Source of the DNA: Methanomethylovorans hollandica DSM 15978
Lineage (GTDB): Archaea; Halobacteriota; Methanosarcinia; Methanosarcinales; Methanosarcinaceae
Direction: 5' to 3'
Length of the DNA: 64,000 bases
Assembly (NCBI RefSeq): GCF_000328665.1
Contig: NC_019977.1
Coordinates: 1,604,011 to 1,668,010, forward strand
In this document: one piece after another, positions 2,546-47,312 of the stretch
How positions within the stretch are numbered: the first letter of the stretch is position 1
Layout: each line of letters starts with the position of its first letter
Made by a program: the position numbers and the translations under genes
The notes under the pieces: model-generated
Database searches by the model: none
What the model saw: the letters and a program-made list of their open reading frames with translations, nothing else
What the model was told of the DNA's origin: nothing

Positions 2546-2546
2546 A

Positions 2547-6221: not shown

Positions 6222-6225
6222 AGGC

Positions 6226-6621: not shown

Positions 6622-6674
6622 TTCAGATCCCCTTTTCCCAAAGCATATTGACCTTTCAGCCCCCGCTTTTGTCT

Positions 6675-6968: not shown

Positions 6969-6977
6969 AAAATAACC

Positions 6978-8722: not shown

Positions 8723-8725
8723 GTC

Positions 8726-9373: not shown

Positions 9374-10387
9374 TTACAGAATTCCCCTCCTTTCACATTC
9401 TATCTTTAAACGATGGTCTATTTGCCTGTAGACCTGCTCCGAGATCTGATCAATGTTAAACTGACGTTTAAGATCAGTTTCTATTTTGGAATATGTAATG
9501 GCAGATTGTGTCAGCATTGTCTCTTTTGTGAGGGCTACACTGCTTTTTATTTCCATGAGTTTCTGATTTATCAGGTGATCTAGATCAGGCAGAGCATGAA
9601 AAACAAGTTCTTTGCCTGCTCCTGAAACATCGCTTACCTCTATGTTCCGAGAAACAATACCCTCGTTGCTGACAGCAGAATTTCTGGCTCCGTTAATTCT
9701 CAGGATATTCTTGGAATCAGGGAGGCCGAACCCATACTTATGGGCCGGATGAACCGGGAAATTTCTGTTAACACCGGCCAGGCTGAGGGAAGAGATAAGA
9801 TTATTTTTTTTCCATCCAGAGCGAACAATGTCAGTGAGATCTGTATTTGGCATGTATGATGGTAAAGACAGCTTATGCCCTGATTCAAAATAAGATATCA
9901 ACTTATTTGTATTGTGAACAGAATAATTTTTGATATCTTCTGCTCTATATAGCTTTCCTTCATTCAGGATATCCCTATTAGTAACTTTTCTTAAAAAACT
10001 GACAGAATTTAAACGACCTGGAGCTCCCAATGGGCTATGTATTACCTTTTTTGAAGGCAAACCCATTATATTTGAAACAAATATCTTTTTCGCTTCTTTA
10101 GTGGCAACAGGGACCCGCTGAAAAATCTTTTTTGGCAAAGATATTGCTGATCCCTTTACATAATATCTGTTATTCTTGAGTGCTGAAACCTCTGTAACAG
10201 TCTTATAGGCAAAACCCTGGAACATTTGTTGCAGTCGGACGGTCACATGCATTTTGTTGTGCAAAGTGATGAACCATCGGGGAATTTGATCGTAAACAAG
10301 TGCTGGAAAAAGAATATATTTTCTTTTTCCTGGCAGGTGTTTATGCATAATTCTTGTATGGAACTTAGGATCAGATAAAGTAAACAT
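9374..10387 (-). CDS. Unrecognised injection-system protein with helical C-terminal tail, 337 aa
   Basis: No domain is recognised with certainty. The ATG at 10387 lies 14 nt after the tube gene, behind a GGTGG box; a longer frame to 10546 would overlap the tube gene and is rejected. The first 250 residues are basic, rich in Asn, Ser and Lys and low in clear structure. Residues about 265-337 are strongly helical (LINQKLMEIKSS, then LKRQFNIDQISEQVYRQIDHRL) and end KIECERRGIL, a tail that resembles the C-terminus of uncharacterised proteins found between tube and LysM genes in other eCIS operons. It may be an assembly factor or a tube-lumen protein; this is inference. Confidence 0.7.
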   Translation of the reverse strand: MFTLSDPKFHTRIMHKHLPGKRKYILFPALVYDQIPRWFITLHNKMHVTVRLQQMFQGFAYKTVTEVSALKNNRYYVKGSAISLPKKIFQRVPVATKEAKKIFVSNIMGLPSKKVIHSPLGAPGRLNSVSFLRKVTNRDILNEGKLYRAEDIKNYSVHNTNKLISYFESGHKLSLPSYMPNTDLTDIVRSGWKKNNLISSLSLAGVNRNFPVHPAHKYGFGLPDSKNILRINGARNSAVSNEGIVSRNIEVSDVSGAGKELVFHALPDLDHLINQKLMEIKSSVALTKETMLTQSAITYSKIETDLKRQFNIDQISEQVYRQIDHRLKIECERRGIL

Positions 10388-10400
10388 TTTAATCCACCCG

Positions 10401-10838
10401 TCAGCTATCTTTCTTGATACCATTATGAACCAGTTCAACGGTCTCGAATGCAATTGTATTGCTGTCAGCCTTAAGGTCGGGTCCGGTCCATTTAACCGGG
10501 TATGCAGCGGAAAAATTCCAGCGCCATTTATCCTCTCCTGTAGCATCCATTAAAATGATAGCTCCTGATTTCCTTTCGAACTTGCCGTTCACCACGTCCT
10601 GATACCACTGCCACATCTGGTCAAGCTCGGTGATTCCCCGTTTTAAAATGATTTTCTGGTACTTTGTTCTTTTAGGAAGCTGATGCACATAATCGTTGAC
10701 ACCTCCTTCCTCATAGGATTCGGTCTCTGTTTCTATCTGAAGGCCCGTAACCTCGGACATCTGGGCAAATGTGATCCCATCGATCTCTACACGAAACCGA
10801 AAGGACATGAAAGGATCCGTTTTTCCTGCAGTGGTCAC
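10401..10838 (-). CDS. Tail tube protein 2 (T4 gp19-like), 145 aa
   Basis: Second tube paralogue of the operon. It shows the Hcp/gp19-type pattern FRFRVEIDGITFAQMSEVTG near residues 13-33, KRGITELDQMWQWYQDVVNG around 75-94 and the closing ETVELVHNGIKKD strand. The start is a GTG at 10838 with a GGGGGG ribosome binding site 6 nt upstream. It lies next to the baseplate half of the operon, and in Afp/PVC particles the tube paralogue encoded nearest the baseplate genes makes the first rings on the hub, so this one may be the initiator tube. That role is inferred. Confidence 0.92.
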   Translation of the reverse strand: MTTAGKTDPFMSFRFRVEIDGITFAQMSEVTGLQIETETESYEEGGVNDYVHQLPKRTKYQKIILKRGITELDQMWQWYQDVVNGKFERKSGAIILMDATGEDKWRWNFSAAYPVKWTGPDLKADSNTIAFETVELVHNGIKKDS

Positions 10839-10878
10839 CTTTTTCCCCCCTTTGCATCTGAAGAAAATAGAATATACC

Positions 10879-11064
10879 TTATTCTACCTCGAGAATACTC
10901 CGTTGTTTCTCTTCACTCATGCGCTGATTGATTCTGGAGATCTCTTCACACCATCTATGTCTATCCTGGTGTTCCATATTGATTATTTCTTCAAGGGACC
11001 AGTGGAAATGGTATGCAATAAAGGCTACCTCCTCGTATATCCTCTCGGGGGGGTAGCCTTTCAT
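10879..11064 (-). CDS. DUF6760-type small protein, 61 aa
   Basis: Very small gene whose product opens MKGYPPERIYEEVAFIAYHF and continues WSLEEIINMEHQDRHRW, a pattern I recognise from the DUF6760 family of CIS operons. The protein is predicted all-helical, with many aromatic and charged residues. Its ATG at 11064 overlaps the stop of the tail assembly gene (ATGA), showing translational coupling. In phages the equivalent position holds the second part of the tail assembly chaperone pair that binds the tape measure, so a chaperone role is a reasonable guess and has no direct support here. Confidence 0.8.
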   Translation of the reverse strand: MKGYPPERIYEEVAFIAYHFHWSLEEIINMEHQDRHRWCEEISRINQRMSEEKQRSILEVE

Positions 11065-11426
11065 TCCCCCAGATACTCACTCTCAATATCGAATTTCTCT
11101 CCGCATTTTGGACATGTAGTTCTTATTTTGGATGTGCCGTCTTCGTTAATTCTGTTGTAAAAGTCCTGCAGGAAGGCAAGGTCCGAAGCAAAGAGGTTCT
11201 CGATCGTATTTGTGCTGATGTGCTCCAGATTCCCAAGTTTTGTGATCACCCTTGAAAGCAGGATCACAGTGAGGTAAGCTGGATTTGCCTGTACCTTCGG
11301 ATCCTTTAATGGAAGGATCTCATCGGCTGCAGTGGCCAGACGCATGATACCATTTTTATGCAGAGTTCCTTCCTGGTCCACATACCCCCGGGGTAAATCA
11401 AATTCGAATTCTGTCTGGAATGTCAC
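11061..11426 (-). CDS. Tail assembly protein with CxxC motif, 121 aa
   Basis: Matches the phage tail assembly / T4-gp14-like chaperone type seen in CIS operons: LPRGYVDQEGTLHKNGIMRLATAADEI in the first 40 residues and LSRVITKLGNLEHISTNTIENL in the middle. Near the C-terminus there is one CPKCG motif (around residue 106) in a TTCPKCGEKFD context that looks like half of a zinc ribbon. Only one Cys pair is present, so metal binding would need another ligand or a dimer. The gene overlaps DUF6760 by 4 nt and lies between the two tube genes. Confidence 0.82.
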   Translation of the reverse strand: MTFQTEFEFDLPRGYVDQEGTLHKNGIMRLATAADEILPLKDPKVQANPAYLTVILLSRVITKLGNLEHISTNTIENLFASDLAFLQDFYNRINEDGTSKIRTTCPKCGEKFDIESEYLGE

Positions 11427-11444
11427 TTATATGCCTCCGCATTA

Positions 11445-11879
11445 TCAGGAATCCCTCTTAAAGCCTTCATGCACTATTTCCAGTGTCTCGATGGCAACTT
11501 CATTACCTTTGGCACTGAAATCCACTGGATCATATTTACTTGGCCATGCTCTTACAATGTTCCACCGTGCCTTATCACTTCCAGCCTCGTCGATAAGTAT
11601 GATGGACATATTTCTCCTCGCACCCTGAGCACCCGAATCTATGACCTGCTGCCTCCAATTATAAAGGTCCATGGAATCTGTGATCCCCCATTTGAGGGTG
11701 ATGTTCCCGTATTTGGTTAAACCTGAAAGCTTACGGAATACAGGTATTTCGTCCCCTTCCCTATATTCAACAGGGTCGGTGGTGGTATCTGCAAAAGTAC
11801 ACTCGCTAAAACCAGCCTGGCTTATTCCATCGATTTCAACCCTGAACCTGAACTGTCTGTATGGATCCTGTCTTACCAT
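11445..11879 (-). CDS. Tail tube protein 1 (T4 gp19-like), 144 aa
   Basis: Main inner tube subunit candidate. The sequence has YRQFRFRVEIDGISQAGFSE at residues 5-24, LKWGITDSMDLYNWRQQV around 73-90 and the closing strand AIETLEIVHEGFKRD. The ATG at 11879 is chosen over an ATG five codons upstream because the GGAGG box lies 8 nt before it. It directly follows the sheath gene, the usual place of the principal tube gene in eCIS. It is a clear paralogue of the tube protein encoded at 10401-10838. Confidence 0.93.
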   Translation of the reverse strand: MVRQDPYRQFRFRVEIDGISQAGFSECTFADTTTDPVEYREGDEIPVFRKLSGLTKYGNITLKWGITDSMDLYNWRQQVIDSGAQGARRNMSIILIDEAGSDKARWNIVRAWPSKYDPVDFSAKGNEVAIETLEIVHEGFKRDS

Positions 11880-11928
11880 TATAGTTTCCTCCAATGATTA
11901 TTCTCTTTTTCAGGAATGCAACTGCCAT

Positions 11929-13551
11929 TTATTCCGTGGCTGCGCTCCCTCCTGCCCACTGGGCTATACGGAATATCACAAATTCTGCAGGTTTTACAGG
12001 AGCTATGCCGATCACACAGATCAACCTGCCATTGTCAATATCGTCCTGGGTCATGGTCGTCCTGTCGCATTTCACAAAGAACGCTTCTTCGGGCTTTGTA
12101 CCCATCAGAGCGCCGTCCTTCCAGACAGTGGTAAGGAATTGGGTGATGGTAGCCCTGACCCTTGCCCAGAGCCTTTCGTTGTTCGGCTCGAAAACAACCC
12201 ACTGAGTGCCTTTTTCAATGGACTCTTCAATATAGATGAAAAGACGGCGGACATTGATGTATTTCCAGAGAGGATCAAGCACGATATTCCTGGCTCCCCA
12301 TACGAGTATTCCCCGATCTGTAAAATTACGGATCACATTGATCCCTCTGGGGTTCAGGATGCCTTGCTCATCTTTAGTTAACTCGAACTCAAGCCCTAAT
12401 GCTCCTCTTACAACCTCATTTGCAGGAGCCTTATGCACTCCACGCTCGATATCGCTGCGGGCATAGATGCCAGCAACATGCCCGCCTGGCGGGACCTGCT
12501 TGATCTGCTGGCTCAGGGGATCATACACCTTTAACCATGGATAGTAGATAGCCCCGTACTTGGATTGTCTGCCAGCAGTGCTAATAATTGTCAAGCCTGA
12601 AATGTTAGGGTTGTCTTTCCCCACTTCAAGGATAGCAAACCTGTCCTTGAGGACTTCACACTGGGTAAGAAGATCGCTTATTAATGTCTTCCTTATATCC
12701 GAAGAGAGTTGATGCAGGTCCGGAGCACATAGGATGGATATTTCATCGATATCCCCTAAAGCAGTAAGCCCCTCTTTTTTCCCCGGTACTGCTGCAGGAT
12801 CTCCGAGGAAGTCACGCCTGCTTAATGGCACTGATGTTTCTTCTGCATCAAGGCCGTCTTCCAAGACATCGAAAAATACAGTGTCTTCTGTGTTTGAAGG
12901 CCTGCCTGAACCTTCCATGACTACGAGATTTGAAAGATTGTTCAGTGGATCTCCTAACTTTTTAAGAAAAAAGTCCGATGATGTTGCATCTTCTGAAAGA
13001 TTGTCAAAAGTCTCCACAGAATCCGCTCTTTCAAGTAGTTCCCTAAATTTTCTCTCTTTTTCCGTGTCGGGAACATTAAAATTTGCTGGAAAATTCACAT
13101 TCTTCCAGTAAGCTATTGTCAGTTTAAAGGATCGTTTTCCGGCAGGTTCATCATTTTCAGGGTCGATCGAAGAATTGTCAACTCTTATAGCAACCCTGTT
13201 GCCCCAGGCCCCTTCTCCAATGGCCTTGAAGATCACTTCGCCCTTGGTCAAAGCAGCAGATTCTGCTCCTCCGGCACCTTCAACACCCCGTCGGACAACC
13301 CGTGCAATATAACAACGTTTACCTCCATTACTGAAAAAACCTTCCACTGCATATGGAAGGTAGGAATCTTCGGTATAACTGCCGTAGACTCTCATGAACT
13401 GGGTCCAGCTTGTGACCAGTTTAGGCGGGATTGTGGGGCCGCGCTCGGTAAGACCGAGGAAACCCACTGTACTTGTACTCACTCCTTCGATCGGCCTGGC
13501 ACCGATCTCAAACTCTTCTATATAGACTCCTGGTGTTAAATACTCTGGAAT
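11929..13551 (-). CDS. Contractile tail sheath protein, 540 aa, apparent AUU start
   Basis: Sheath subunit whose contraction drives the tube. The C-terminal half has the conserved sheath core (GRQSKYGAIYYPWLKVYDP, then PPGGHVAGIYARSD and ARNIVLDPLWKYINVRRLFI). The first ATG/GTG/TTG codon in frame is a GTG at 13482, but the codons upstream of it read PEYLTPGVYIEEFEIGARPI, the conserved N-terminal strand and linker of the family. An AGGAGG box at 13560-13565 lies exactly 8 nt before an ATT at 13551, and no ATG, GTG or TTG is available there, so translation probably starts at AUU. An ATC one codon earlier is a weaker option. Only one sheath gene is seen, whereas Afp and PVC have three. Confidence 0.93.
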   Translation of the reverse strand: MPEYLTPGVYIEEFEIGARPIEGVSTSTVGFLGLTERGPTIPPKLVTSWTQFMRVYGSYTEDSYLPYAVEGFFSNGGKRCYIARVVRRGVEGAGGAESAALTKGEVIFKAIGEGAWGNRVAIRVDNSSIDPENDEPAGKRSFKLTIAYWKNVNFPANFNVPDTEKERKFRELLERADSVETFDNLSEDATSSDFFLKKLGDPLNNLSNLVVMEGSGRPSNTEDTVFFDVLEDGLDAEETSVPLSRRDFLGDPAAVPGKKEGLTALGDIDEISILCAPDLHQLSSDIRKTLISDLLTQCEVLKDRFAILEVGKDNPNISGLTIISTAGRQSKYGAIYYPWLKVYDPLSQQIKQVPPGGHVAGIYARSDIERGVHKAPANEVVRGALGLEFELTKDEQGILNPRGINVIRNFTDRGILVWGARNIVLDPLWKYINVRRLFIYIEESIEKGTQWVVFEPNNERLWARVRATITQFLTTVWKDGALMGTKPEEAFFVKCDRTTMTQDDIDNGRLICVIGIAPVKPAEFVIFRIAQWAGGSAATE

Positions 13552-13696
13552 GATGTTCTCCTCCTTATATATTTATAGTGTTATTGAAATATATTTTACT
13601 GATCTACAACTAATCTAAATGTTATCATGAAAACAAAAACAATTATGAATTATAATTTGAAATTCCTACTCCAGAATATCTGGATCAGGCACTTCA
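13552..13696 (-). promoter_or_regulatory. AT-rich gap with possible internal promoter before the sheath gene
   Basis: This 145-nt gap is the largest within the operon before the sheath. On the minus strand it holds an AT-rich element AAAATATATTT near 13585-13595 that could be a TATA box, followed by the strong ribosome binding site of the sheath gene. A 13-nt inverted repeat CCAGAATATCTGG lies at about 13672-13684. An extra promoter would fit the high copy number needed for sheath and tube, but there is no expression evidence. Confidence 0.35.
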
Positions 13697-14296
13697 TCAG
13701 GGAAGAGAAATAAAACCCGATGAAACTGTTTGGAACTCTTTTGCAGTAACATTAATTGTTCTGGTAATACCATTTTTTTTGCTCTCAATGCTTACCTCCT
13801 CTTCATTCTCAATGCCACTCAAATAAACAACAAAACTTCCCTTCCCATCACTTATGGTTTCCATATTTCTGCCTATCACCCTCAACTGAGCACCTTTTAC
13901 GGGTTCATTTGCTCCATCCCTGACAACACCCCTTACAAGTGTTGCATTTGAGGAAAATGGGTACTCAGGTCTGGGCTTAAGGACTATTTCAGTTATCAAA
14001 GGATTTTTTGGATCGAGAATAGGTGGAAGATCAACAGTTGTTTCCTTTGGGAAATACATATCGGAGTCAACTCTCACAGTGTAAGTTCCAGCTTTGAGGT
14101 CCGTAAAGAGATAATAGCCGCTTGTGTTTTTCATGGCTTTTTTGTCTGTTTCCTTTACCTTCACCTTAATGTTGCCAATGGTTTCGTTTTTTGTTAGATC
14201 ATCGATTAGCTGAACTGCAAAAGAAAGTGTGGTTGTCACCACATGATCCAGATATGCAACATACTGACCGGTCTCATAAGGTGTGGAAAAAGCCAT
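13697..14296 (-). CDS. Two-domain CarboxypepD_reg (Ig-like) protein of the injection system, 199 aa
   Basis: The protein consists of two beta-sandwich domains of the carboxypeptidase regulatory type. The first spans about residues 25-105 (NIKVKVKETDKKAMKNTSGY, LKAGTYTVRVDSDMYFPKE), and the second about 118-190 (VRGVVRDGANEPVKGAQLRV, SDGKGSFVVYL). It has no signal peptide or membrane segment. It lies between the Pvc16-like cap gene and the sheath gene, 4 nt after the former. Some Pvc16-family proteins carry such a domain as a C-terminal fusion, so it may bind the cap or decorate the particle surface. That role is inferred from position. Confidence 0.8.
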   Translation of the reverse strand: MAFSTPYETGQYVAYLDHVVTTTLSFAVQLIDDLTKNETIGNIKVKVKETDKKAMKNTSGYYLFTDLKAGTYTVRVDSDMYFPKETTVDLPPILDPKNPLITEIVLKPRPEYPFSSNATLVRGVVRDGANEPVKGAQLRVIGRNMETISDGKGSFVVYLSGIENEEEVSIESKKNGITRTINVTAKEFQTVSSGFISLP

Positions 14297-14300
14297 TGTG

Positions 14301-14915
14301 TCATCCTTCTTGCTGACTTTCTTTCTTCGTCATCATTTGCATATAATCCATCTCTTTGGATATCACTCTCTGAACACTCATCTTCCGAGTTGAATCGATC
14401 CTCACCGGAGTTACCACGTAGCAAACTGAAGATTTGAAGGGTCTGCCCGCAAAGGTGGTCCATATCTTAGTAAGGTCGTCCAGACTGAGGGAAGTTAGCG
14501 TTATATGCAATTCATCGCTTCTGTCAAGGTTTCCCTTCAAAAGTGATCCGCCCAGGATAGAATTATCATGGAGGACCTGCAGAGCTCTTCCCAAAACCCT
14601 GTGCTCTTCCAGCGCCTTTTCGGTTTTATCTTGTTCCCCGGAAGATACATGAGATGTCAGCATGTAATATAATTCAAGGATTTGGGGCGGAAACGTAACC
14701 TTTGTGGGATCACTCAACTGCATCTCCTGGTTCTTTAAATGGGCATTTTCAAGTATCTGGTATAAGAAGAGAGATAGTCGAACATTATCTTTGGCATCGA
14801 TCTCTCCCGGAGAAGCCAATATTATAGAATCCGCCGGTATCAGATCTTTCATATTATCCTTTAATAATTCTATCAACGTTTCTCCGACATCTGCTATCGC
14901 TCTGTAATCAGACAT
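14301..14915 (-). CDS. Pvc16/Afp16-type cap or tube terminator protein (DUF4255), 204 aa
   Basis: Matches the Pvc16 N-terminal family: MSDYRAIADVGETLIELLKD at the start, SPGEIDAKDNVRLSLFLYQI around residues 37-56 and PPQILELYYMLTSHVSSGEQ around 75-94. In Afp, the homologue ends tube and sheath growth and caps the distal end. The ATG at 14915 overlaps the last 8 nt of the ATPase gene; a longer frame starting at 14987 would lie inside the ATPase gene and lacks the family start. Coupled translation with the ATPase agrees with their joint role in assembly. Confidence 0.9.
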   Translation of the reverse strand: MSDYRAIADVGETLIELLKDNMKDLIPADSIILASPGEIDAKDNVRLSLFLYQILENAHLKNQEMQLSDPTKVTFPPQILELYYMLTSHVSSGEQDKTEKALEEHRVLGRALQVLHDNSILGGSLLKGNLDRSDELHITLTSLSLDDLTKIWTTFAGRPFKSSVCYVVTPVRIDSTRKMSVQRVISKEMDYMQMMTKKESQQEG

Positions 14916-17133
14916 TGTCCTTTTCTCCGGATTGCTTGATCCAACGGGAATACTCTCCAAAATCAGCTTCAGTAAAAAGCTTCCCAATCTTTTGTAATTC
15001 CCTTTTTGTAGCTTTTATCAGGTGTTCCATTCCCACAATACCTGAACTCCCTGCAGCCAGAAAGGCTGCTGCAAGTGCTATATTTTTAATGTTTCCTCCA
15101 GTGAACCTGAACTTTGATAGGAAAGAGAAGTCCACATCATCTCCAAGGGGAGTTTCAGCCGGAAACATGCCCTTCCAGATCATTTCCCTGGACATGTCAT
15201 CGGGGAGTGGGAATTCGATAGTGAAATGCAGCCTGCGCAGGAATGCATCGTCTATATTTTTTCGGAAATTACTTGCAAGGATCACCGTTCCTACATGTTC
15301 CTCCATTTTCTGGAGCAGATAGGCAATTTCAATGTTTGCATACCGATCATGAGCATCCTTAACTTCCGATCTCTTTCCAAAAAGTGAATCCGCTTCATCA
15401 AAAAAGAGGATCGCATTGCTTGATTGAGCTTCATTGAAGATCTTTTCCAGGTTTTTTTCAGTCTCCCCAATATATTTACTAACCACATTTGATAGATCGA
15501 TTTTATAGATGTCCAGATCCACCACATTTGCAACGATCTCCGCAGCCATGGTCTTTCCGGTTCCGGATGGCCCGGAGAAAAGAACATTCAATCCCTTTCC
15601 CAGGGATAGTTTCTTTTCGAAGCCCCAGTCAGAGTATACTTTTCCTCTGTACCTGATAAAACCACAGACTTCTTTTAACTGCGATTTTGTATCCTTGGGG
15701 AGAACTATATCTTTCCAGGTATAATGTGGATCGATCTTTATGGCAAGAGAACTTATTTTTTGATTGGACTGGAGCCTACAGCCCTCGTAAAGGTCTTCCA
15801 TCGATAAGACAGGATTGGAAGGGTCCTTCAACTTTGCGAAAGTATGTGCTGTGAGGACCGCATCCTTTATTCGACCACCCGTTAGCTGGAACTTGCTTGC
15901 AAGAATGTTCGTATCCACATTGAAGGCTACGTTGTAACCTTCCAAAGCATTCTCCCATAATTGTTTACGCAGCGGATATGAAGGCAAAGGAAAGGAAAAA
16001 TGTATAAACCCATTGTTCATGAGCTCTTCTTTCAATCCCTCACTGCGCTCCAAAGGTTTCGTTCCGGCTATGAATAACCAATTAGGGAAAGCCATTAAGA
16101 CCTGGATCAGAGATCTTATCTGAGTTTCCGATTCCCTGAAAGTCAAAGCCCCCTGATCTTCTAACAACGCATCAAAATTCTCGAGATACAATGCCGAATT
16201 TTGCAGGAGTGCTTCTCGTAGTATGAGAGCGGCTGTTTCTGAAGCCTGAGAAGAGGTGTCTTTAAACAGGGATTTTGTATCAACTACAAGCATATCCATT
16301 CCTGCTATCCTGCAGGCTGCTTTTGCTGCACTCGTTTTTCCACTGCCATTAACTCCAGAGAACAGGAACTTCAAGGGAGAACTATTCTGAATATGCCATA
16401 TTATCATGTCCTTCAGCCTGCCTTTGAGGTCAGCAGGAAGGATCAGATCATCAAAAGAACTCTCAGGGTTAACTAAGTGTGAAAGTTCCCGAACTTTCCT
16501 GTCAGGCTGGTCAGACCCCAGTAAAAAACCGATTATTCTCTCATCAACTTTGATGAAGCTGGATATAAGGGGTAACTGTCCATTCTGTCCATCTCCTGTA
16601 AGATGGATCAGCTTGTTTTTAAGCAGCGATGAAGATAGAGAAAAATAGGTTCTGGATCTTAATTTTGCTTCCATCGTCGGGCAGAGCAGATTCATGACCA
16701 GATCGATCCCGGGACGTTTGCGGGTCACATCATTTTGAAGGTAGGAATATATTTTTTCATATTTCAGATCCAATTCCGGAGCAAGCCCGATCAAAAGAAC
16801 GTCGGTTTCGAATGTATCCAGGCCGAACATTTCAACAAGCGTATGAAATCGTAGTTGAGTACCTTGCTTCAGGCTTGCGGCCATTTTAGAGTTAATATTT
16901 TTGCGAATTGCTTCCAGTTCTTTTCTTTTTTCATCTGGCAACGCTTTAAAACTGCCCTGAAAAACCGGTAATTTTTGAAGATTTTGTATTTCACCCTCTG
17001 AGATATAGAGACCCATAAATTCAATAGGTTCTGAATTATCGGCACGTACTGTTTCAAGATAGGTCATAATAACCTGGTCGATCCTTGAAAGCTCATCCAG
17101 CAGATGTTCCAGATTGTCAGTATAAGGTATCAT
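14908..17133 (-). CDS. Double AAA+ ATPase of the injection system (Afp15-type), 741 aa
   Basis: Residues about 1-210 form a helical N-terminal region, followed by two AAA+ modules. Module 1 has a good Walker A (GVNGSGKT, 260-267) but a poor Walker B (LYLENFDALL, about 316-325) without the usual acidic pair. Module 2 is canonical: GPSGTGKT (521-528), ILFFDEAD (575-582), a sensor Asn in LASN and an arginine finger in FLRRL (631-635). All eCIS operons carry a related ATPase, thought to act in particle assembly and not seen in the mature particle. Module 1 may bind ATP without turning it over; this is inferred from the motif loss. Confidence 0.93.
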   Translation of the reverse strand: MIPYTDNLEHLLDELSRIDQVIMTYLETVRADNSEPIEFMGLYISEGEIQNLQKLPVFQGSFKALPDEKRKELEAIRKNINSKMAASLKQGTQLRFHTLVEMFGLDTFETDVLLIGLAPELDLKYEKIYSYLQNDVTRKRPGIDLVMNLLCPTMEAKLRSRTYFSLSSSLLKNKLIHLTGDGQNGQLPLISSFIKVDERIIGFLLGSDQPDRKVRELSHLVNPESSFDDLILPADLKGRLKDMIIWHIQNSSPLKFLFSGVNGSGKTSAAKAACRIAGMDMLVVDTKSLFKDTSSQASETAALILREALLQNSALYLENFDALLEDQGALTFRESETQIRSLIQVLMAFPNWLFIAGTKPLERSEGLKEELMNNGFIHFSFPLPSYPLRKQLWENALEGYNVAFNVDTNILASKFQLTGGRIKDAVLTAHTFAKLKDPSNPVLSMEDLYEGCRLQSNQKISSLAIKIDPHYTWKDIVLPKDTKSQLKEVCGFIRYRGKVYSDWGFEKKLSLGKGLNVLFSGPSGTGKTMAAEIVANVVDLDIYKIDLSNVVSKYIGETEKNLEKIFNEAQSSNAILFFDEADSLFGKRSEVKDAHDRYANIEIAYLLQKMEEHVGTVILASNFRKNIDDAFLRRLHFTIEFPLPDDMSREMIWKGMFPAETPLGDDVDFSFLSKFRFTGGNIKNIALAAAFLAAGSSGIVGMEHLIKATKRELQKIGKLFTEADFGEYSRWIKQSGEKDNV

Positions 17134-37780: not shown

Positions 37781-37841
37781 ATATATAAGTCAAATCCATC
37801 ATTAAAAACAATTATATATAGGCAGAATAATGGAGGTAGGC
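37781..37841 (+). promoter_or_regulatory. Promoter and ribosome binding site of the mrp operon
   Basis: ATATATAAG at 37781-37789 is a good TATA box, with a second AT-rich element ATTATATATAGG near 37810-37820. A GGAGG box lies 5 nt before the mrpA ATG at 37842. The rest of the 650-nt stretch before mrpA holds only the frameshifted gene noted separately. Confidence 0.5.
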
Positions 37842-40208
37842 ATGGACCCATTCATACTGATAACATTGGCTGTATTCCTGCCATTTTTACTGGCCGTTGC
37901 CGTGCCAGCAGTAGAAAAGCTGATCAAACACAGAGTTGGCTGGTTTGCTACACTCGTTGCTTTCATAAGCTTTCTGCTGGTTATCAGTATTTCTCCCCTT
38001 GTGATGCATGGGGAAAATTTCCAGGCATCTGTGGAATGGCTTCCCTCAATGGGAGTAGAATATAGTATATATGTGGATGGCCTGAGCGTTCTTTTCGGTA
38101 TAATTATCACGGGTATAGGCATAATAATTATGTTCTACTCGAATGGGTACATGGGTCACAAGGAAGACCTGCCAAGGTACTACCAATGGCTTCTACTGTT
38201 CATGGGTTCCATGCTGGGAATGGTATTTGCCGCTAATACGATCATGCTCTTTGTCTTCTGGGAACTTACCAGCATCACATCTTTCATGCTCATCGGCTAC
38301 TGGAGGAACAAACCTCAGTCCGTGTATGGTGCGACGAAATCTTTGTTAGTGACAGCTGCAGGCGGACTTTTCATGCTTGCGGGCTTCATCGTGTTGCGTG
38401 CTATTACAGGCACCTTTGATATACCCACCATTCTGCAGAACGAAACACTGATAACAATGGTGAAAGGCCATGAATTGTTCCTTGCAGCTCTTATATTGAT
38501 ATTTATCGGAGCAGCATCAAAATCCGCTCAGGGTCCTTTCTATATATGGCTTCCCAATGCGATGGAAGCACCAACTCCTGTAAGCGCTTTTCTGCACTCT
38601 GCCACCATGGTAAAAGCCGGTATATATCTGGTAGCCAGGATACACCCCATATTTTCCGGAACAGAGGCCTGGTTTATACTTGTCAGCGGCACTGGAATGA
38701 TCACAATGCTGGCAGCAGGTTTCCTGGCTTTCAGGCAGACCGATATAAAAGCAATACTTGCGTATTCCACCATCAGCCAACTGGCATATATTATGGCCAT
38801 GTATGGATATACTACCTATCAGGAGCCAGGCATAGGAGTTGCTGCTGCAACCTTCCACCTGCTTAACCATGCAACGTTCAAAGCATGCCTGTTCCTTGTG
38901 GCAGGTATCGTTGCACATGAAGCTGCTACCCGTGATATCACACGGCTTGGCGGATTGCGGCACGAAATGCCCATCACGTTCATTATTGCCACGATAGGTG
39001 CCCTTTCCATGGCGGGAGTACCACCATTAAATGGTTTTTTGAGCAAGGAAATGTTCTATGAATCTTCCATTGAGATGGGACATGCGCTGGGAAGTCCTTT
39101 TACTTTCATTATCCCTGCGATTGCAGTTGCCGGCGGAGTATTCACTTTTGCATATTCTATAAAGTTCATAGCAGCTATTTTCCTGGGCAAGCGCCCTGAA
39201 AAAGGTATACCGCCCCATATTCATGATCCTTCGCTCATCATGATCCTTCCGGCAGCCTTCCTTGCCGGCCTTATCATTATCTTCGGGCTTGTGCCATCCA
39301 TAGCCGTACAAAATCTCATAGAACCTGCGGCATCTTCAATAATGATGGAAGCCCAGCATCTGCATGTACAGCTCTGGCATGGACTGACAGGCTCTCTGGC
39401 AATGACCGTAGTGACATTCCTGCTGGGCATCGCAGTGTACACAAAATATGACCGTATAGCAGAATGGCAGAACAGCTTTAACCGTAAATATCCGATGATC
39501 AGTGTCAATTACGTATACGATAGCCTTGTGAACAATGCAGGGGACACTTTGAAAGGCTTCTCTTCTTTCATGCAGCCAGGTAGTGTCAAGAGATATGTGG
39601 TTGCACTTCTTATCCTGATGGTCGTATTATTTGCCATACCTTTCCTGAAACTTTCAGCAGGTTTTGCACCGACATTGAACTTAAACCTGGAGCCATACGA
39701 ATTAGTGGTATTTTTCTTCATGATAATGGCTGCTGTGGGAGCAGCGGTGTTGCCCAAATATTTGCCGGCAGTGATCTCCCTTTCAGCCCTGGGGTACCTC
39801 GTAAGCTTACTTTTCATATACCTGTCGGCTCCGGACCTTGCACTTACCCAGGTATTGGTAGAAACCCTTTCCACTATAATCTTCCTGTTTGCTATTGTCA
39901 AGATCCCTCAGACCTTTAAGGAGCATATATCTCCATCCCTGTTCATGCGAGATGCTCTTATAGCAGTATCTGTGGCTTCTGTAGTATTTATTTTGCTGTT
40001 GAGTGCAACACAAGGCATCATTGCGCCCTTTGAGTCGCTTTCTTACTACTTTATAGAAAAGGCATTACCTCTTGCAGGCGGTCATAATATTGTCAACGTG
40101 ATAATCGTGGATTTCAGAGGATATGATACATTAGGAGAGATAGCTGTCATGTGTCTTGCTGCTCTTGGAGTTTATAATCTTATACACAGCAGAGGTGAGA
40201 GCCAATGA
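37842..40208 (+). CDS. mrpA: Mrp Na+/H+ antiporter subunit A, 788 aa
   Basis: Largest membrane subunit of the multisubunit Na+/H+ antiporter, related to complex I subunit NuoL with a C-terminal part like MbhD/MbhE. It shows the proton-channel Glu in LFVFWELTSITSFMLIGYW, the Lys-containing GAASKSAQGPFYIWLPNAME followed by SAFLHSATMVKAG, and LNHATFKACLFLVAG. In Methanosarcina the complex helps to adapt the sodium gradient to ATP synthesis during acetate growth; here its role is inferred from that. It is the first of seven coupled genes. Confidence 0.95.
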   Translation: MDPFILITLAVFLPFLLAVAVPAVEKLIKHRVGWFATLVAFISFLLVISISPLVMHGENFQASVEWLPSMGVEYSIYVDGLSVLFGIIITGIGIIIMFYSNGYMGHKEDLPRYYQWLLLFMGSMLGMVFAANTIMLFVFWELTSITSFMLIGYWRNKPQSVYGATKSLLVTAAGGLFMLAGFIVLRAITGTFDIPTILQNETLITMVKGHELFLAALILIFIGAASKSAQGPFYIWLPNAMEAPTPVSAFLHSATMVKAGIYLVARIHPIFSGTEAWFILVSGTGMITMLAAGFLAFRQTDIKAILAYSTISQLAYIMAMYGYTTYQEPGIGVAAATFHLLNHATFKACLFLVAGIVAHEAATRDITRLGGLRHEMPITFIIATIGALSMAGVPPLNGFLSKEMFYESSIEMGHALGSPFTFIIPAIAVAGGVFTFAYSIKFIAAIFLGKRPEKGIPPHIHDPSLIMILPAAFLAGLIIIFGLVPSIAVQNLIEPAASSIMMEAQHLHVQLWHGLTGSLAMTVVTFLLGIAVYTKYDRIAEWQNSFNRKYPMISVNYVYDSLVNNAGDTLKGFSSFMQPGSVKRYVVALLILMVVLFAIPFLKLSAGFAPTLNLNLEPYELVVFFFMIMAAVGAAVLPKYLPAVISLSALGYLVSLLFIYLSAPDLALTQVLVETLSTIIFLFAIVKIPQTFKEHISPSLFMRDALIAVSVASVVFILLLSATQGIIAPFESLSYYFIEKALPLAGGHNIVNVIIVDFRGYDTLGEIAVMCLAALGVYNLIHSRGESQ

Positions 40209-40621
40209 CCACAGTGATAACAAAAATGATCACAAGGATATGCTTACCATTAGTGATACTATTTTCCATATCATTATTGTTGGCCGGACATAACAATCCG
40301 GGCGGAGGGTTTATAGGAGGCGTCATGTTCGCGTCTATTATAGCCCTTGCTTATGTAGTATACGGACTTGAAACCATTAAAAGATCATTCAATCCGGATT
40401 GGGGCAAGTGGTTCGGTTTCGGATTAGTTCTGGCATCATTCACAGCTTTTGCCGCCCTTCCTTTTGGACATAATTTCTTTAGGAGTGCAGTAGAGTTTGT
40501 ACATATTCCCCTGATAGGGGAGATCGAACTGGTCTCTGCTGGCTTATTTGATATAGGGGTGTATTTTGTGGTGATCGGTTCTTTGCTTAGTATATTCCAG
40601 ATGGTTGGTGAGGACAAATGA
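40205..40621 (+). CDS. mrpB: Mrp antiporter subunit B, 138 aa
   Basis: Membrane subunit of the MnhB type with four helices. The motif LLAGHNNPGGGFIGGVMFAS near residues 22-41 is diagnostic. It overlaps mrpA by ATGA. Confidence 0.95.
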   Translation: MTTVITKMITRICLPLVILFSISLLLAGHNNPGGGFIGGVMFASIIALAYVVYGLETIKRSFNPDWGKWFGFGLVLASFTAFAALPFGHNFFRSAVEFVHIPLIGEIELVSAGLFDIGVYFVVIGSLLSIFQMVGEDK

Positions 40622-41034
40622 ATAACACATTGCTATCCCTTACTATAGCTATACTTTTCGGGATAGGTACTTTTCTTATCCTGCGCAGAGACATTGTAAA
40701 AGTCATCATCGGCTTGAGCATAATGTCCCATGCAGTGAACTTGCTCATAGTATCTGTAGGAGTATTCAGCGGTAAAGATGTACCAATAATCACTCAGCAT
40801 GAAGTGGAGTCTACAAACACAATTTTCAGTGATTCTCTGCAAAGTGGTGTGCTTGCCCCTTTATTGAACGGAACTGAAACTACGCAGTTCGTGGACCCGC
40901 TGGTGCAGGCCCTGGTATTGACGGCTATCGTCATCAGCCTTGCAACAACAGCCGTGATTATTATACTTGCATATCGTATTCATGAAGAATATGGTACCAC
41001 TGATATACAAAAACTAAAGAGGTTGTGGGGATGA
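40618..41034 (+). CDS. mrpC: Mrp antiporter subunit C, 138 aa
   Basis: NuoK-like membrane subunit. Motifs: LRRDIVKVIIGLSIMSHAVN near residues 22-41, and DPLVQALVLTAIVISLATTA near 94-113. A periplasm-facing stretch between helices 2 and 3 is longer than in bacterial MrpC. It overlaps both neighbours by 4 nt. Confidence 0.95.
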   Translation: MNNTLLSLTIAILFGIGTFLILRRDIVKVIIGLSIMSHAVNLLIVSVGVFSGKDVPIITQHEVESTNTIFSDSLQSGVLAPLLNGTETTQFVDPLVQALVLTAIVISLATTAVIIILAYRIHEEYGTTDIQKLKRLWG

Positions 41035-42569
41035 GTTCGATGATCCATCATTTCCCTATTCTGCTTATAGCAATACCCATACTTACAGCGGCTCTCACAA
41101 TGATGCTGCGCTCAAGGTCGAAGCTGCAGGCGGGACTGAGCGTCCTTGCATCATTTTCACTTGTAATTATAAGCTTGTTGTTGCTGATAGAAGTATGGAG
41201 ATCAGGGATACAAGTCTATGAAGTTGGGGAATGGGGCAAATATGGGATCATGCTTGTGGCAGATCTGCTCAGTGCAGGCATGGTGGTAATGAGTGCAGGC
41301 GTGTCTTTCCTTTCACTCATATATTCCCTGGACTACATTGAGAAACGTTCATTGCCCACATATTATCCCCTGTTCAACCTGCTGATAGCCGGTTTGCATG
41401 GTTCCTTCCTTACAGGGGACATTTTCAACCTGTTCGTTTTCTTTGAAGTACTATTACTCTCATCCTGTGGACTTGTAATGGCACTTGAAAAGGGTGGAGT
41501 TACAAAAAGTTCAGACAAGCTGGAAGCAACGTTCAAATACCTTATTCTGAACATGCTAGGCTCTTTCCTTATGCTGATAGCTGTTTCAGCTTTATATGCA
41601 ACCACAGGTACCCTGAACATGGCAGATATATCGGTGAAACTTAGCGCCATGCAGGCAGCGGGCAATCTTCCCTGGCATGTGTTTGCCATAGGTCTTCTGT
41701 TTATAGTTGTATTTGGTAACAAGGCAGCCATATTCCCATTACATTACTGGCTACCCGATGTGCATCCCACAGCACCTTCCCCTATAAGCGCCATGCTAAG
41801 TGGCGTACTTATAAAGGTAGGAGTGTACGGCATGCTCAGAGTATTCTTCTACATATTTACAGACTTACTGGGCATGTTCCAGCCCATAATAATAGTGCTT
41901 GCATTGTTCACAATAGGCATCGGAGCTGCATCGGCAGTTGCACAGACAGATGTAAAGAGATTGCTGGCTTATTCCAGTGTTAGTCAGATAGGCTATGTGT
42001 TCTTAGGTATTGGTTTCGGAAGTGCGGGAGCCATCGCAGCATCCCTTGTGTACCTGGTCAATCATGCTATCGCAAAATCATTGTTGTTCCTTACTTCAGG
42101 AGGTATCATACATCATGCAGGTACTCGCGATATGAGCAAGATGGGAGGTATGGCCAATAGTTCTCCTTTCATGGCCGCAGCTTTCCTGATAGGCAGCATG
42201 TCGATAGCGGGACTGCCTCCCATGGGAGGTTTCATCTCCAAGTTTTCCCTGTTCGATGCTGGTCTTATTGGACAACACTACACAGAAATTGCAATTGCGC
42301 TGCTGTTCGCTGTATTTTCGCTGTTCTATATGTTCAGGGCATGGTTGCTTATGTTCTGGGGTGAGAAAAGAGATGTAAAGATACATGGAGAATACTCACA
42401 GCACGGTAGCTCTCCCCTGATATATCTGCCAATTGCCATTCTGGCCCTGACGGTTCTGGTCCTGGGCCTTTATGCAGAACCTTTGTTTTCCCTGGCTCAG
42501 GCAACTGCAGTGCAGATACTTGACCCCCAGCCATACATAGATGCTGTAATGACAAGGGTGGTAAGATGA
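41031..42569 (+). CDS. mrpD: Mrp antiporter subunit D, 512 aa
   Basis: Antiporter-like subunit related to complex I NuoM/NuoN with about 14 helices. The channel Glu lies in NLFVFFEVLLLSSCGLVM, and the Lys/His line in VFGNKAAIFPLHYWLPDVHP and SAMLSGVLIKVGVYGM. The ATG at 41031 forms an ATGA overlap with mrpC; a GTG two codons earlier is less likely. Confidence 0.95.
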   Translation: MSSMIHHFPILLIAIPILTAALTMMLRSRSKLQAGLSVLASFSLVIISLLLLIEVWRSGIQVYEVGEWGKYGIMLVADLLSAGMVVMSAGVSFLSLIYSLDYIEKRSLPTYYPLFNLLIAGLHGSFLTGDIFNLFVFFEVLLLSSCGLVMALEKGGVTKSSDKLEATFKYLILNMLGSFLMLIAVSALYATTGTLNMADISVKLSAMQAAGNLPWHVFAIGLLFIVVFGNKAAIFPLHYWLPDVHPTAPSPISAMLSGVLIKVGVYGMLRVFFYIFTDLLGMFQPIIIVLALFTIGIGAASAVAQTDVKRLLAYSSVSQIGYVFLGIGFGSAGAIAASLVYLVNHAIAKSLLFLTSGGIIHHAGTRDMSKMGGMANSSPFMAAAFLIGSMSIAGLPPMGGFISKFSLFDAGLIGQHYTEIAIALLFAVFSLFYMFRAWLLMFWGEKRDVKIHGEYSQHGSSPLIYLPIAILALTVLVLGLYAEPLFSLAQATAVQILDPQPYIDAVMTRVVR

Positions 42570-43060
42570 AAAAATACATTCCTCTGGCAGCTATATTTGG
42601 AGTGATATGGTGCTTAATTCATGGCACTATCGATCTGAATAACTTTATATTTGGTTTCCTGCTCGGCCTGCTTACCATAAGGCCTTTCAGATTCCTTTAC
42701 AAGCCTGAAGAGAACTTCAAATTATTATCTCCGCCAAACCGTATAATTTCGATCATAAGGTATTTTATGGTCCTTATTAAGGAGATAATTAAAGCCAACA
42801 TAGTGGTGGCTAAGGTCGTAACAAAACCAAAGATAGATATAAAACCGGGAATCATTGCAGTTCCCATCAGATGCAAGACCGATCTGGGCATCACCGGGAT
42901 CGCAAATACAATAACCCTCACCCCAGGTACAATTACGGTAGATATATCAGATGACCATTCAATGCTCTATGTGCACTGCCTCGATGCATCTGATCCTGCA
43001 GCCGTATGTGCATCTATACGTGATGATCTTGAAAAATATATACTGGAGGCTTTCGAATGA
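42566..43060 (+). CDS. mrpE: Mrp antiporter subunit E, 164 aa
   Basis: MnhE-type subunit with two N-terminal helices and a cytosolic C-terminal domain. The motif NTITLTPGTITVDISDDHSM lies around residues 111-130, and LYVHCLDA after it. It overlaps both neighbours by ATGA. Confidence 0.94.
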   Translation: MKKYIPLAAIFGVIWCLIHGTIDLNNFIFGFLLGLLTIRPFRFLYKPEENFKLLSPPNRIISIIRYFMVLIKEIIKANIVVAKVVTKPKIDIKPGIIAVPIRCKTDLGITGIANTITLTPGTITVDISDDHSMLYVHCLDASDPAAVCASIRDDLEKYILEAFE

Positions 43061-43320
43061 TCAGTTTACTGGATTTCTCCCTGATATTCATGGTGCTTGC
43101 ATTCATACCATGCATGTATCGTATAATCAAAGGCCCCACTATCCCTGACAGGGTAGTGGCCCTGGATGCCATGACAACTGTGATAATAGTCATGCTTGGG
43201 GCCTATTCTTACGATAAAGGCTCAGCCTTTTTCATGGACGTAGCCCTGGTGCTGGCAGTGATATCTTTCGTAGGTACTGTGACCATTTCAAAATACCTTG
43301 ATGAAGGAGTGGTCTTATGA
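43057..43320 (+). CDS. mrpF: Mrp antiporter subunit F, 87 aa
   Basis: Small three-helix subunit. The motif CMYRIIKGPTIPDRVVALDA near residues 19-38 and the later FMDVALVLAVISFVGTVTIS are diagnostic. It overlaps both neighbours by ATGA. Confidence 0.94.
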   Translation: MISLLDFSLIFMVLAFIPCMYRIIKGPTIPDRVVALDAMTTVIIVMLGAYSYDKGSAFFMDVALVLAVISFVGTVTISKYLDEGVVL

Positions 43321-43682
43321 GCATAGTAGGTATATTCAGCATGATAATGAACATCCTGAGCGACATAGTGCTGCTGATAGGCCTAGTTTTCGTATTCCTT
43401 GGTATGCTGGGCCTGATGCGCATGCCTGACGTGTACAACCGTCTGCATACGACTTCCAAGATAGGTACGGTCGGAGCCTTCGGAGTAATGCTGAGCATCC
43501 TCATGAGAGCAGGTTTCACACCTATAGGTATCAAAGCTATTACCGTGGGTCTGTTCTTACTCCTTACAGCTCCTATTGCAGCTCACATGATCACAAGAGC
43601 AGCGCACAGGCATGGAGTAGGATTATGTAAGGAATCTGTTATAGATGAGTATGGAAAAGCATGCGAGAGATGTAAAAAGTAA
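43317..43682 (+). CDS. mrpG: Mrp antiporter subunit G, 121 aa
   Basis: Three-helix subunit of the MnhG type with the motif GMLGLMRMPDVYNRLHTTSK followed by GTVGAFGVMLSI. It is the last gene of the operon; T-rich runs at about 43691-43712 right after it could end transcription. Confidence 0.94.
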   Translation: MSIVGIFSMIMNILSDIVLLIGLVFVFLGMLGLMRMPDVYNRLHTTSKIGTVGAFGVMLSILMRAGFTPIGIKAITVGLFLLLTAPIAAHMITRAAHRHGVGLCKESVIDEYGKACERCKK

Positions 43683-44242: not shown

Positions 44243-45523
44243 ATGTTAAAAGAGTACATTGACATTGGATATGTTCCTGATGAAACCGATTTTGTATGTG
44301 AATATCATCTGGAACCTGCGCTGCGAGTTAGTTTCGAGGAAGCCTGTAACCATCTGGCCGGAGAATGTTCCATTGGAAAGTGGAGTGATATTGCTCTGCT
44401 GAACCCTAAACTTGCACAGAAATTAAAACCCCATGTGTTCCACATAGATAAAAAGAAACATGTTGTCAGAGTTTCATATCCCCAGGACCTGTTCGAGTTC
44501 TGCTCGGTGTCTCATATCATCAGTACAGTTGCAGGCAGAATACTGAATAGTAATATGATAAGCAGATTAAAGCTGCATGATATTATCTTTCCGCCAGACC
44601 CTGTGAACGAACTCTGGGGACCAAAGTACGGTGTGGGAGGAATAAGAGATCTTACAGGTGTTTATGATCGCCCCCTGGTGAATGCTGCTGTAAGGCCAAA
44701 GGTTGGACTTGATCCGGCAACACATGCAAAGGTCGCATATGATCTTTTTGTAGGGGGCTGTGATATGGTAAAAGACGACGAAAACCTGACCGATCAGAAG
44801 TTCAACAGGTTCGAAAAACGTGCAGAACTCACATTCGAGGCCCGGGAAGATGCAGAAGAGGAAACCGGAGAGAAAAAGATGTATATGTGCAACATCACTG
44901 CTCCCACATGTGAAGAGATGATAAGGAGAGCAAATTTTATAAGCAATATAGGTGGGCATTATGTAATGATAGATGCAGTGCCCACAGGCTGGAGCTCGGT
45001 GCAGACATTGCGTGATGTCACTGAAGAACTCGGACTTGCCATACATGCACAGATTCAGGGACATAATACCTTTACGGGTATGGAAGATCATAGTATCAGC
45101 CTGTATCTGATAACCAAGCTTGCCCGTCTTGCAGGGCTTGACCAGCTTTATATCGGTGACATTGACAAGCATTTCCATGAAAAGAAAAAAGAATTAATGG
45201 CACTGCATGATTGTTGTGTTATGGATAAAGTAAAAGGAAATGAAAAGATGCACATTCTCCCTCAGAACTGGGATGGGATAAAGCCTATGTTCCCTGTTGT
45301 TTCAGGCGGGTACGTACCTGCATTGATACCGGAGCTTATGAATGTATTTGACAAAGATGTTATAATAGATTGCAACAGTGGTATATATTCACATCCAATG
45401 GGCTGCGCTGCCGGTGCAAAATCTTGCCGGCAGGTTATTGAGGCAGTACTTGCCGGCGTGTCTCTGGAAGAATATGCAAAGAGCCATACAGAACTACAAG
45501 CTGCCTTTAACGATAAAGGATGA
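44243..45523 (+). CDS. RuBisCO-like protein with altered active site, 426 aa
   Basis: The fold and length match archaeal form III RuBisCO. The carbamylated Lys and metal ligands are kept (GGCDMVKDDENL: K177, D179, E180), as is SGG at 354-356. By hand alignment with spinach and M. jannaschii RbcL, six other catalytic or substrate residues are changed: T65 is K46, N123 is R99, K175 is R151, H294 is Q270, R295 is I271 and H327 is Y303. The phosphate loop GGG reads NSG (378-380). Carboxylation is therefore doubtful, and an enolase-type or unknown reaction on a sugar phosphate is more likely. It is the first gene of an operon with sua5. Confidence 0.9.
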   Translation: MLKEYIDIGYVPDETDFVCEYHLEPALRVSFEEACNHLAGECSIGKWSDIALLNPKLAQKLKPHVFHIDKKKHVVRVSYPQDLFEFCSVSHIISTVAGRILNSNMISRLKLHDIIFPPDPVNELWGPKYGVGGIRDLTGVYDRPLVNAAVRPKVGLDPATHAKVAYDLFVGGCDMVKDDENLTDQKFNRFEKRAELTFEAREDAEEETGEKKMYMCNITAPTCEEMIRRANFISNIGGHYVMIDAVPTGWSSVQTLRDVTEELGLAIHAQIQGHNTFTGMEDHSISLYLITKLARLAGLDQLYIGDIDKHFHEKKKELMALHDCCVMDKVKGNEKMHILPQNWDGIKPMFPVVSGGYVPALIPELMNVFDKDVIIDCNSGIYSHPMGCAAGAKSCRQVIEAVLAGVSLEEYAKSHTELQAAFNDKG

Positions 45524-45535: not shown

Positions 45536-46585
45536 ATGAAACACCATACAAAGATCTTTAACATAAATCCTGAGAACTTCTCAGATGTTATAGAAGAATG
45601 TGCTGAAATTATCTGCAGAGGCGGAACTGTGGCCATACCTACGGAAACCGTGTATGGCCTGAGTGCCAACGCACTTGATCCGGTAGCTGTAAACGGAATA
45701 TTCCATGCAAAAGGTCGCCCGGCAGATAATCCGCTGATCGTGCATGTGGCATCTGTGCAACAATTAGACAAATTAGTATTAGAGATCCCTGCAAAGGCTT
45801 TGTCCCTGATGGAGGCTTTCTGGCCCGGACCATTGACACTTATTCTGAAAAGGACTTGTATTGTTCCGGACATAACTACGGGCGGGCTGGATACGGTTGC
45901 TGTGAGAATGCCAGCCGATATTGTAGCACAGGAACTGATACGTGTATCCGGCAAACCTCTGGCAGCACCCAGTGCCAACACTTCAGGCAGACCAAGCCCC
46001 ACCACCGCAGCTCATGTGCTGCATGATCTGGAAGGAAGAATAGATGCAGTGATAGATGCAGGAAATACATGCATAGGAGTGGAATCCACAGTTATCGATA
46101 TGAGCGGAAAGAAACCTGCCATTTTGAGACCTGGATATATACCCGCGAGCAGGATCGAAGAGATCATAGGAGAAGTGGAGATCGGTTATAATGACAATGT
46201 GACAGAAACTGAGGGTGTAATCAGGTCTCCGGGCATGAAATACACACATTATGCTCCAAACGCCACTGTACTGCTTCTGGAAGGGGCCCATGATCTTGTA
46301 CAGGATAAGATCCGCGAAATGTATACTGATTTTACCTGCAGGGGAGCCAGAGTGGGCTTGCTTGTTACCAATGCTGGTCTTTTGTCCCTTACAAACGATA
46401 TGTTCTATCTTGGAAGCAAAGATGAACCTGAAGAAGTAGCCAGAAACCTTTTCCTAGGTTTACGTGCGCTGGATGAAAGAAGAGTGAACATCATACTTGC
46501 AGATGGATCTTTTACTCATGAAGGTGTTGGTGCAGCTGTAATGAACAGGCTGAGGAAAGCCTCTGAAATGATAATCAGACTATAG
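45536..46585 (+). CDS. sua5: Threonylcarbamoyl-AMP synthase Sua5, 349 aa
   Basis: Makes threonylcarbamoyl-AMP for t6A37 of ANN-decoding tRNAs. The YrdC core has TETVYGLSANALDP, FHAKGRPADNPLIVH and SANTSGRPSPTTAAH; the extra Sua5 domain follows from about residue 220, after the linker IRSPGMKYTHYAPNA. It follows the RuBisCO-like gene by 12 nt, so they probably share a transcript, with no obvious shared pathway. Confidence 0.95.
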   Translation: MKHHTKIFNINPENFSDVIEECAEIICRGGTVAIPTETVYGLSANALDPVAVNGIFHAKGRPADNPLIVHVASVQQLDKLVLEIPAKALSLMEAFWPGPLTLILKRTCIVPDITTGGLDTVAVRMPADIVAQELIRVSGKPLAAPSANTSGRPSPTTAAHVLHDLEGRIDAVIDAGNTCIGVESTVIDMSGKKPAILRPGYIPASRIEEIIGEVEIGYNDNVTETEGVIRSPGMKYTHYAPNATVLLLEGAHDLVQDKIREMYTDFTCRGARVGLLVTNAGLLSLTNDMFYLGSKDEPEEVARNLFLGLRALDERRVNIILADGSFTHEGVGAAVMNRLRKASEMIIRL

Positions 46586-46850: not shown

Positions 46851-47312
46851 TTAAAAAAAACCGGTTGTTTTAAGCATTTTGAATGCCAGATCTGTGACCG
46901 CAAATTTAGCCTTGCTGACAAAACTTACAGGATCAATGGATATGGCTCCGCTTGCACGGGCTTCTTCATAGACAGTAAGCGGGGCTGTAGTTGTGATAAG
47001 GTTTCTGACAGTATCTTCATCGGTAGCGATGATCACAGTAGGATGGTAGTCACTTACATCCTTGACCTTTTCGAATTCTGTCACTCTGCCGTTCTCTGTA
47101 ACTAGCCATACGTTCAGTTCACTTCCATCGTTCATTATAATTCCCGCCAGGATACCTTCGTTCCCAAGGAGAACCTTAATTGAGCCGGGAAGTTCTTCGT
47201 AGTATGCGTTGTATTCCGTAACAGACCTGTCCAGGTCATTGAACAGCTCTGCATTTGCAGTACCCATCGTAATGAACAACAGGATAATTAACATGCATAA
47301 GGTCTTTTTCAT
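46851..47312 (-). CDS. Secreted protein with signal peptide, 153 aa
   Basis: The N-terminus MKKTLCMLIILLFITMGTAN is a clear signal peptide with a likely cleavage after ANA. The mature part is acidic, with strands GSIKVLLGNEGILAGIIMND and a region TTAPLTVYEEARASGAISID that I associate with an uncharacterised archaeal family. A TATA box TATACTAG on the minus strand lies at about 47374-47382. The function is unknown. Confidence 0.7.
   Translation of the reverse strand: MKKTLCMLIILLFITMGTANAELFNDLDRSVTEYNAYYEELPGSIKVLLGNEGILAGIIMNDGSELNVWLVTENGRVTEFEKVKDVSDYHPTVIIATDEDTVRNLITTTAPLTVYEEARASGAISIDPVSFVSKAKFAVTDLAFKMLKTTGFF

Follow-up and report, generated by a model that had tools for sequence, protein, structure and literature searches.

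The gene RLP-Mm, at positions 44243..45523 (+ strand) of the window (the whole 64,000-nucleotide stretch of Methanomethylovorans hollandica DNA that was analysed), encodes a degenerate form III RuBisCO of 426 aa (Pfam PF00016/PF02788). Its ancestry is form III rather than remote form IV, and it is maintained by purifying selection. Judging from the residues replaced and the established mechanism, it has almost certainly lost RuBisCO catalysis. On balance, the sequence comparisons favour a non-catalytic RuBisCO pseudoenzyme under selection, which would work by binding a partner or a ligand. The new observation is that all three complete orthologs from sister species lack catalytic residues too, though not the same ones.

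In the Pfam search, RuBisCO_large (247 bits) and RuBisCO_large_N (131.5 bits) were matched across the entire length of RLP-Mm. The best curated profile was TIGR03326 (form III) with 427.9 bits, under its cut-off of 497.45, and the PRK04208 score of 424.6 was under the cut-off of 438. Two MtnW profiles gave 183 and 151 bits (cut-offs 409 and 513.6) and the OiaX profile gave 155 bits (cut-off 700), all far under the thresholds. In the tree, RLP-Mm was grouped with form III of Methanosarcinaceae (support 97/100), and the Methanomethylovorans copies formed their own clade (100/100), which answers the phylogenetic check proposed in the first-pass annotation. Its assignment to the RuBisCO family holds, with both Pfam domains found end to end and the protein placed in the form III clade. 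RLP-Mm is a RuBisCO-like protein in the broad sense, combining the RuBisCO fold with lost catalytic residues, and lies outside the form IV clades (MtnW, OiaX) by its scores and its tree position inside form III. A recent duplication of the form II/III copy described below was rejected (33% identity, separate clade), and acquisition of a form IV protein by lateral transfer was ruled out by synteny and the tree. The ATG is preceded by a purine-rich, ribosome-site-like stretch, and this start is common to four species; the reading frame is readable from a GTG at 44093, but the ortholog alignment begins only at 44243.

RLP-Mm and the intact second copy fit the two RuBisCOs named MhR-A and MhR-B, respectively, in a 2017 paper (PMC5399129), with about 32% mutual identity. 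In the available portion of that paper, MhR-A is described as an early branch from the other Methanosarcinales enzymes without the RAD domain, the function of both proteins is stated as unstudied, and no mention of the active site of MhR-A was found.

Seven genes of an mrp/mnh-type Na+/H+ antiporter (A-G; 37830..43682, +) are located upstream of RLP-Mm, and sua5 (threonylcarbamoyl-AMP synthase; 45536..46585, +; Pfam PF01300/PF03481) starts 12 bases downstream. The downstream order is sua5, a 153-aa ORF, the DNA polymerase D large subunit gene (polC/DP2), a radical-SAM protein gene, and mcr genes. The order mrp-rbcL-sua5-DP2 was found with an intact form III gene in G005, and rbcL-sua5-DP2, again with an intact form III gene, in the Methanosarcina-type genome G095. 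In G027 the upstream genes are others, yet rbcL and sua5 are still adjacent; sua5 adjoins the form III gene in every examined species that has one. In G006, which has only a II/III enzyme, the mrp order is the same and mrpG is separated from sua5 by 447 bases with no RuBisCO between. By synteny (mrp - rbcL - sua5 - polC/DP2), RLP-Mm is orthologous to the active Methanosarcina enzyme, and since this order is common to species with intact form III, it represents the form III gene native to the family, still at its ancestral place. As noted earlier from the sequence, no methionine-salvage or sugar-acid genes were found adjoining it. The 153-aa ORF (46851-47312, -) had no Pfam match; it has a signal-like start, is fast-evolving, and is found between sua5 and DP2 with 66-84% identity in the genus. 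Elsewhere in the window, positions 578-17133 (-) hold a contractile injection system-like cluster in this methanogen (tail sheath, LysM CIS tube protein, baseplate spike OB-domain, tail protein, Baseplate_J proteins, Pvc16_N protein, and AAA ATPase).

Residues were numbered as in spinach RuBisCO, and all codons given here are on the + strand. The six substitutions listed in the first-pass annotation were all present in the alignment: T65K (K46 in RLP-Mm, 44378..44380), N123R (R99, 44537..44539), K175R (R151, 44693..44695), H294Q and R295I (Q270 and I271, 45050..45055), and H327Y (Y303, 45149..45151). K201, D203, and E204 were retained, and the second phosphate loop G403-G404-G405 was NSG (residues 378-380, 45374..45382), both as reported. 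Additionally, K334 of loop 6 is replaced by His (H310, 45170..45172), with a Lys one codon earlier, I/T173 is Ala, and the loop itself reads DIDKHFHE in place of TVVGKMHG. RLP-Mm differs at 8 of the 17 catalytic positions, N123, K175, H294, R295, H327, K334, G403, and G404 all being replaced. Misalignment was rejected as a cause: every catalytic motif aligns without gaps, and the G044 and G027 orthologs keep some of the residues in the same columns.

K175, H294, R295, K334, and the phosphate loops are needed for RuBisCO catalysis; in established RuBisCO enzymology, K175, R295, H327, K334, and the 403-404 loop serve enolisation, carboxylation, and phosphate binding. T65K carries less weight than first appears, because Methanosarcina form III has Ser at this position. 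M. hollandica still has an intact first phosphate site (S379-G380-G381) and retains E60, W66, K177, and H298, so bisphosphate binding would be broken mainly at N123/K175/R295/H327/K334 and at 403-404. The earlier claim that the residues for proton abstraction and sugar-bisphosphate binding are gone stands for these positions, but not for the first phosphate site. With key residues replaced, RLP-Mm cannot plausibly be a RuBP carboxylase, as had been suspected.

Six Methanomethylovorans genomes were compared, among them M. hollandica (G000; 2.71 Mb, two contigs). Complete open orthologs were found in G044 (78% identity), G036 (71%), and G027 (66%), and the C-terminal part of one at a contig end in G051 (75%). 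No ortholog was found in G014 (99% complete), which trees of Sua5 and DP2 nest within the genus beside G044. In the place of RLP, immediately ahead of sua5, G014 has a sirtuin-like ORF (L064:6191-6934; named by eye from the sequence). Each of the four complete copies, RLP-Mm included, has lost 6 to 8 of the 17 key residues, in combinations that differ by species. Position 294 is Q/H/N/H, 295 is I/I/R/S, and 327 is Y/H/Y/F; the phosphate loops are GG/AG/CR/SE at 380-381 and NSG/SIG/DST/SNN at 403-405. The 403-405 loop and loop 6 are retained by none of the four and are different in every species, and a basic residue is located at or beside position 334 in each copy. All four copies retain K201-D203-E204, K177, E60, W66, and S379. 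The evidence that the metal triad is preferentially retained among these seven catalytic residues is weak (about 0.04 by hand calculation).

Elsewhere in the phylum, 59 of 60 further form III-type copies (mostly one per genus) had 0 or 1 difference at the 17 catalytic positions, compared with 8 in RLP-Mm, so its substitutions are not due to chance. The exception, L128 (G124:C34:6504-7718), had four (K177C, R295M, H298A, H327V); its genome also carries an intact copy (L074), and L128 is possibly an independent RuBisCO-like protein. Form IV-like RuBisCO-like proteins with 26% identity and K177S/H298A/H327Q were also seen in Actinomycetota MAGs (L040:1876-3003 and L041:8001-9128).

Selection was estimated with a GY-type codon model (F3x4) written for this analysis. 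Only four complete orthologs entered it, and synonymous sites were near saturation on the longer branches and between distant species; the genus stem branch was saturated (branch length 12), and its dN/dS was left uninterpreted. The gene-wide dN/dS of the four orthologs was 0.162 (bootstrap 0.127-0.185), compared with 0.122 for sua5, 0.062 for DP2, and 0.092 for the radical-SAM gene; two canonical form III sets gave 0.067 and 0.085, and the II/III gene of the genus gave 0.062. The model with omega=1 was rejected by 195 log units (lnL -4169.9 vs -4364.8). Under neutrality about 92 stop codons would be expected over the tree and 0 were seen; the four complete copies have no stop or frameshift over about 6.8 neutral substitutions per codon. 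A pseudogene was rejected on these grounds (dN/dS 0.16, omega=1 rejected, no stops in the complete copies).

The constraint has shifted within the protein. The 21 active-site codons had a dN/dS of 0.336 in the genus vs 0.154 elsewhere (LRT 11.9), and the same sites in the canonical form III sets had 0.001 vs 0.07-0.09 elsewhere. A three-clade fit gave 0.358 in the genus vs 0.005 in canonical form III for the active-site codons, with a summary range of 0.15-0.18 for the remaining codons of the genus. From canonical form III to the genus, dN/dS rose from 0.031 to 0.407 in block 351-390 (phosphate loop) and from 0.023 to 0.239 in block 296-326 (loop 6), but from 0.043 to only 0.085 in block 175-250 (44765..44992, +), which holds beta2 with K201/D203/E204, alpha2, beta3, alpha3, and beta4 and is the most constrained block in the genus. 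Across the four species, active-site columns had 2.1 distinct residues on average vs 1.5 in other canonical-invariant columns (p 0.0008). The rate and residue-diversity tests were clearer than the count of columns with any change, where active-site enrichment among canonical-invariant sites was weak (Fisher p 0.15, 0.08, or 0.04, depending on which reference set was used).

An AF2 model of RLP-Mm (pLDDT 78) predicts that the RuBisCO fold is retained, its best PDB matches all being RuBisCOs, archaeal ones first (TM 0.85-0.90). The model confidence is uninformative on activity, because an intact form III control built with the same alignment scored similarly (76 vs 78).

The proposed check for a separate true RuBisCO revealed an intact form II/III gene in the M. 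hollandica genome (G000:C2:1952752-1954209). This copy is intact in four of the six genus genomes, with a fragment in a fifth, and was not found in G044 (86% complete); the catalytic residues are intact in all four. Among 101 Methanosarcinaceae genomes, each RuBisCO-bearing genus has either the form III type or the II/III type (77-90% identity), and only Methanomethylovorans has both; no sampled genus with the II/III enzyme alone has form III. Genes for AMP phosphorylase and ribose-1,5-bisphosphate (R15P) isomerase are present, and an intact AMP phosphorylase was not found in G044 or G051. Since the intact II/III RuBisCO occurs together with AMP phosphorylase and R15P isomerase, RLP-Mm has likely been released, and the II/III enzyme can still do the old work. 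The second RuBisCO probably freed RLP-Mm from catalysis.

The pseudoenzyme reading is preferred because a new active site would be conserved and a dead gene would be neutral, and neither holds. The form III gene was inherited vertically and stayed at the ancestral Methanosarcinaceae locus, with the distantly related II/III RuBisCO able to serve AMP/RuBP salvage. Relieved of this duty, the form III copy would have lost RuBP carboxylation, as its residue losses suggest, and the substrate-binding residues would then have drifted separately in each species. Selection persists on the N-terminal domain and the barrel, most of all on the K201-D203-E204 block, which would leave a folded, probably dimeric scaffold that may bind a metal or a CO2-carbamate and would act by binding a partner or ligand. 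Two findings speak against this explanation: the gene is dispensable, since it was lost in G014, and all four orthologs retain the metal triad, which an enzyme would need as well.

The latter finding bears on a new enzyme, in which K201-D203-E204 with K177, E60, and S379 would catalyse an enolisation or some other reaction, with a different substrate that may vary by species. The unchanged residues, W66 among them, and the strong constraint on the triad block are in line with such an enzyme, and known form IV proteins demonstrate that the RuBisCO fold is capable of such chemistry. However, the replacing residues are not common to the species and evolve faster than the rest, the 403-405 loop and loop 6 vary throughout, the MtnW and OiaX scores are far too low, and no pathway gene is nearby. 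The metal-dependent enolase-like reaction thought plausible in the first-pass annotation is thus unlikely, because no new active site is conserved among the orthologs.

Slow decay of a dispensable gene, which lost its RuBisCO function, has no role of its own, and would end in loss, is also rather unlikely. The catalytic residues are scattered differently by species, the overall dN/dS exceeds the canonical form III values two- to threefold, and the absence from G014 and from the sampled II/III-only genera would suit such an end state. Against it, dN/dS is far from 1, the reading frames are undamaged despite the many neutral substitutions, and the start region and the sua5 junction are retained.

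It is improbable that RLP-Mm is a CO2/metal sensor or regulator, in which the carbamylatable lysine and the triad would respond and the scaffold would signal to a partner. Sua5, which consumes bicarbonate, would be a candidate partner, by adjacency only. A translated spacer, kept only to couple translation or transcription to sua5, is highly improbable: the rbcL-sua5 adjacency is conserved even where the upstream mrp genes are not, but the amino-acid sequence itself is conserved, sua5 of G014 sits behind an unrelated ORF, and G006 has only a RuBisCO-free gap before sua5. That RLP-Mm still works as a RuBisCO, turning over RuBP in the AMP pathway with its unusual residues, is scarcely credible despite form III similarity over the whole length (428 bits to TIGR03326) and an M. 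acetivorans ortholog that complements a RuBisCO deletion (PMC4575112), given the sub-threshold profile score, the replacement of K175, R295, H327, K334, and the 403-404 loop, an active site less, not more, constrained than the rest, and an intact RuBisCO already in the genome.

On the pseudoenzyme reading, the genus shows an enzyme on its way to becoming a different kind of protein, most probably one without catalysis. RLP-Mm, which a published survey lists among the RuBisCOs, is unfit as evidence of CO2 fixation. The closest known system is form III of Methanosarcina, represented by M. acetivorans RbcL, active by complementation (PMC4575112); it is orthologous to RLP-Mm, with the same locus, clade, and length and about 55% identity over the full length, but its catalytic residues are all intact and its active-site dN/dS is near zero, whereas those residues are scrambled in RLP-Mm. 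The form II/III RuBisCOs (RAD, 'form IIIB') of Methanococcoides burtonii and MhR-B come from the same methanogen family, MhR-B even from the same genome, but share only 32-33% identity with RLP-Mm and, in the genus, keep their catalytic residues; according to the available text of PMC5399129, form II/III RuBisCO carries an assembly domain.

Form IV proteins (MtnW/YkrW, DeepYkr, OiaX) resemble RLP-Mm in having the RuBisCO fold, lost RuBisCO residues, and a kept metal triad. Their clades are ancient, and each has a conserved active site and a pathway of its own, whereas RLP-Mm originated from form III in a single genus and without a conserved replacement site. Archaeoglobus fulgidus, with RbcL1, is another archaeon with two RuBisCO genes, one divergent, in a different lineage. 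To our knowledge, the departure of form IV from carbon fixation is known only from its end products. The step seen in RLP-Mm is recent and local, confined to one genus and one syntenic locus with intact orthologs in neighbouring genera; the second RuBisCO is its likely cause, and one species is already without the gene. With the constraint off the active site and still on the scaffold, 'redundancy first, loss of catalysis second' is directly testable here.
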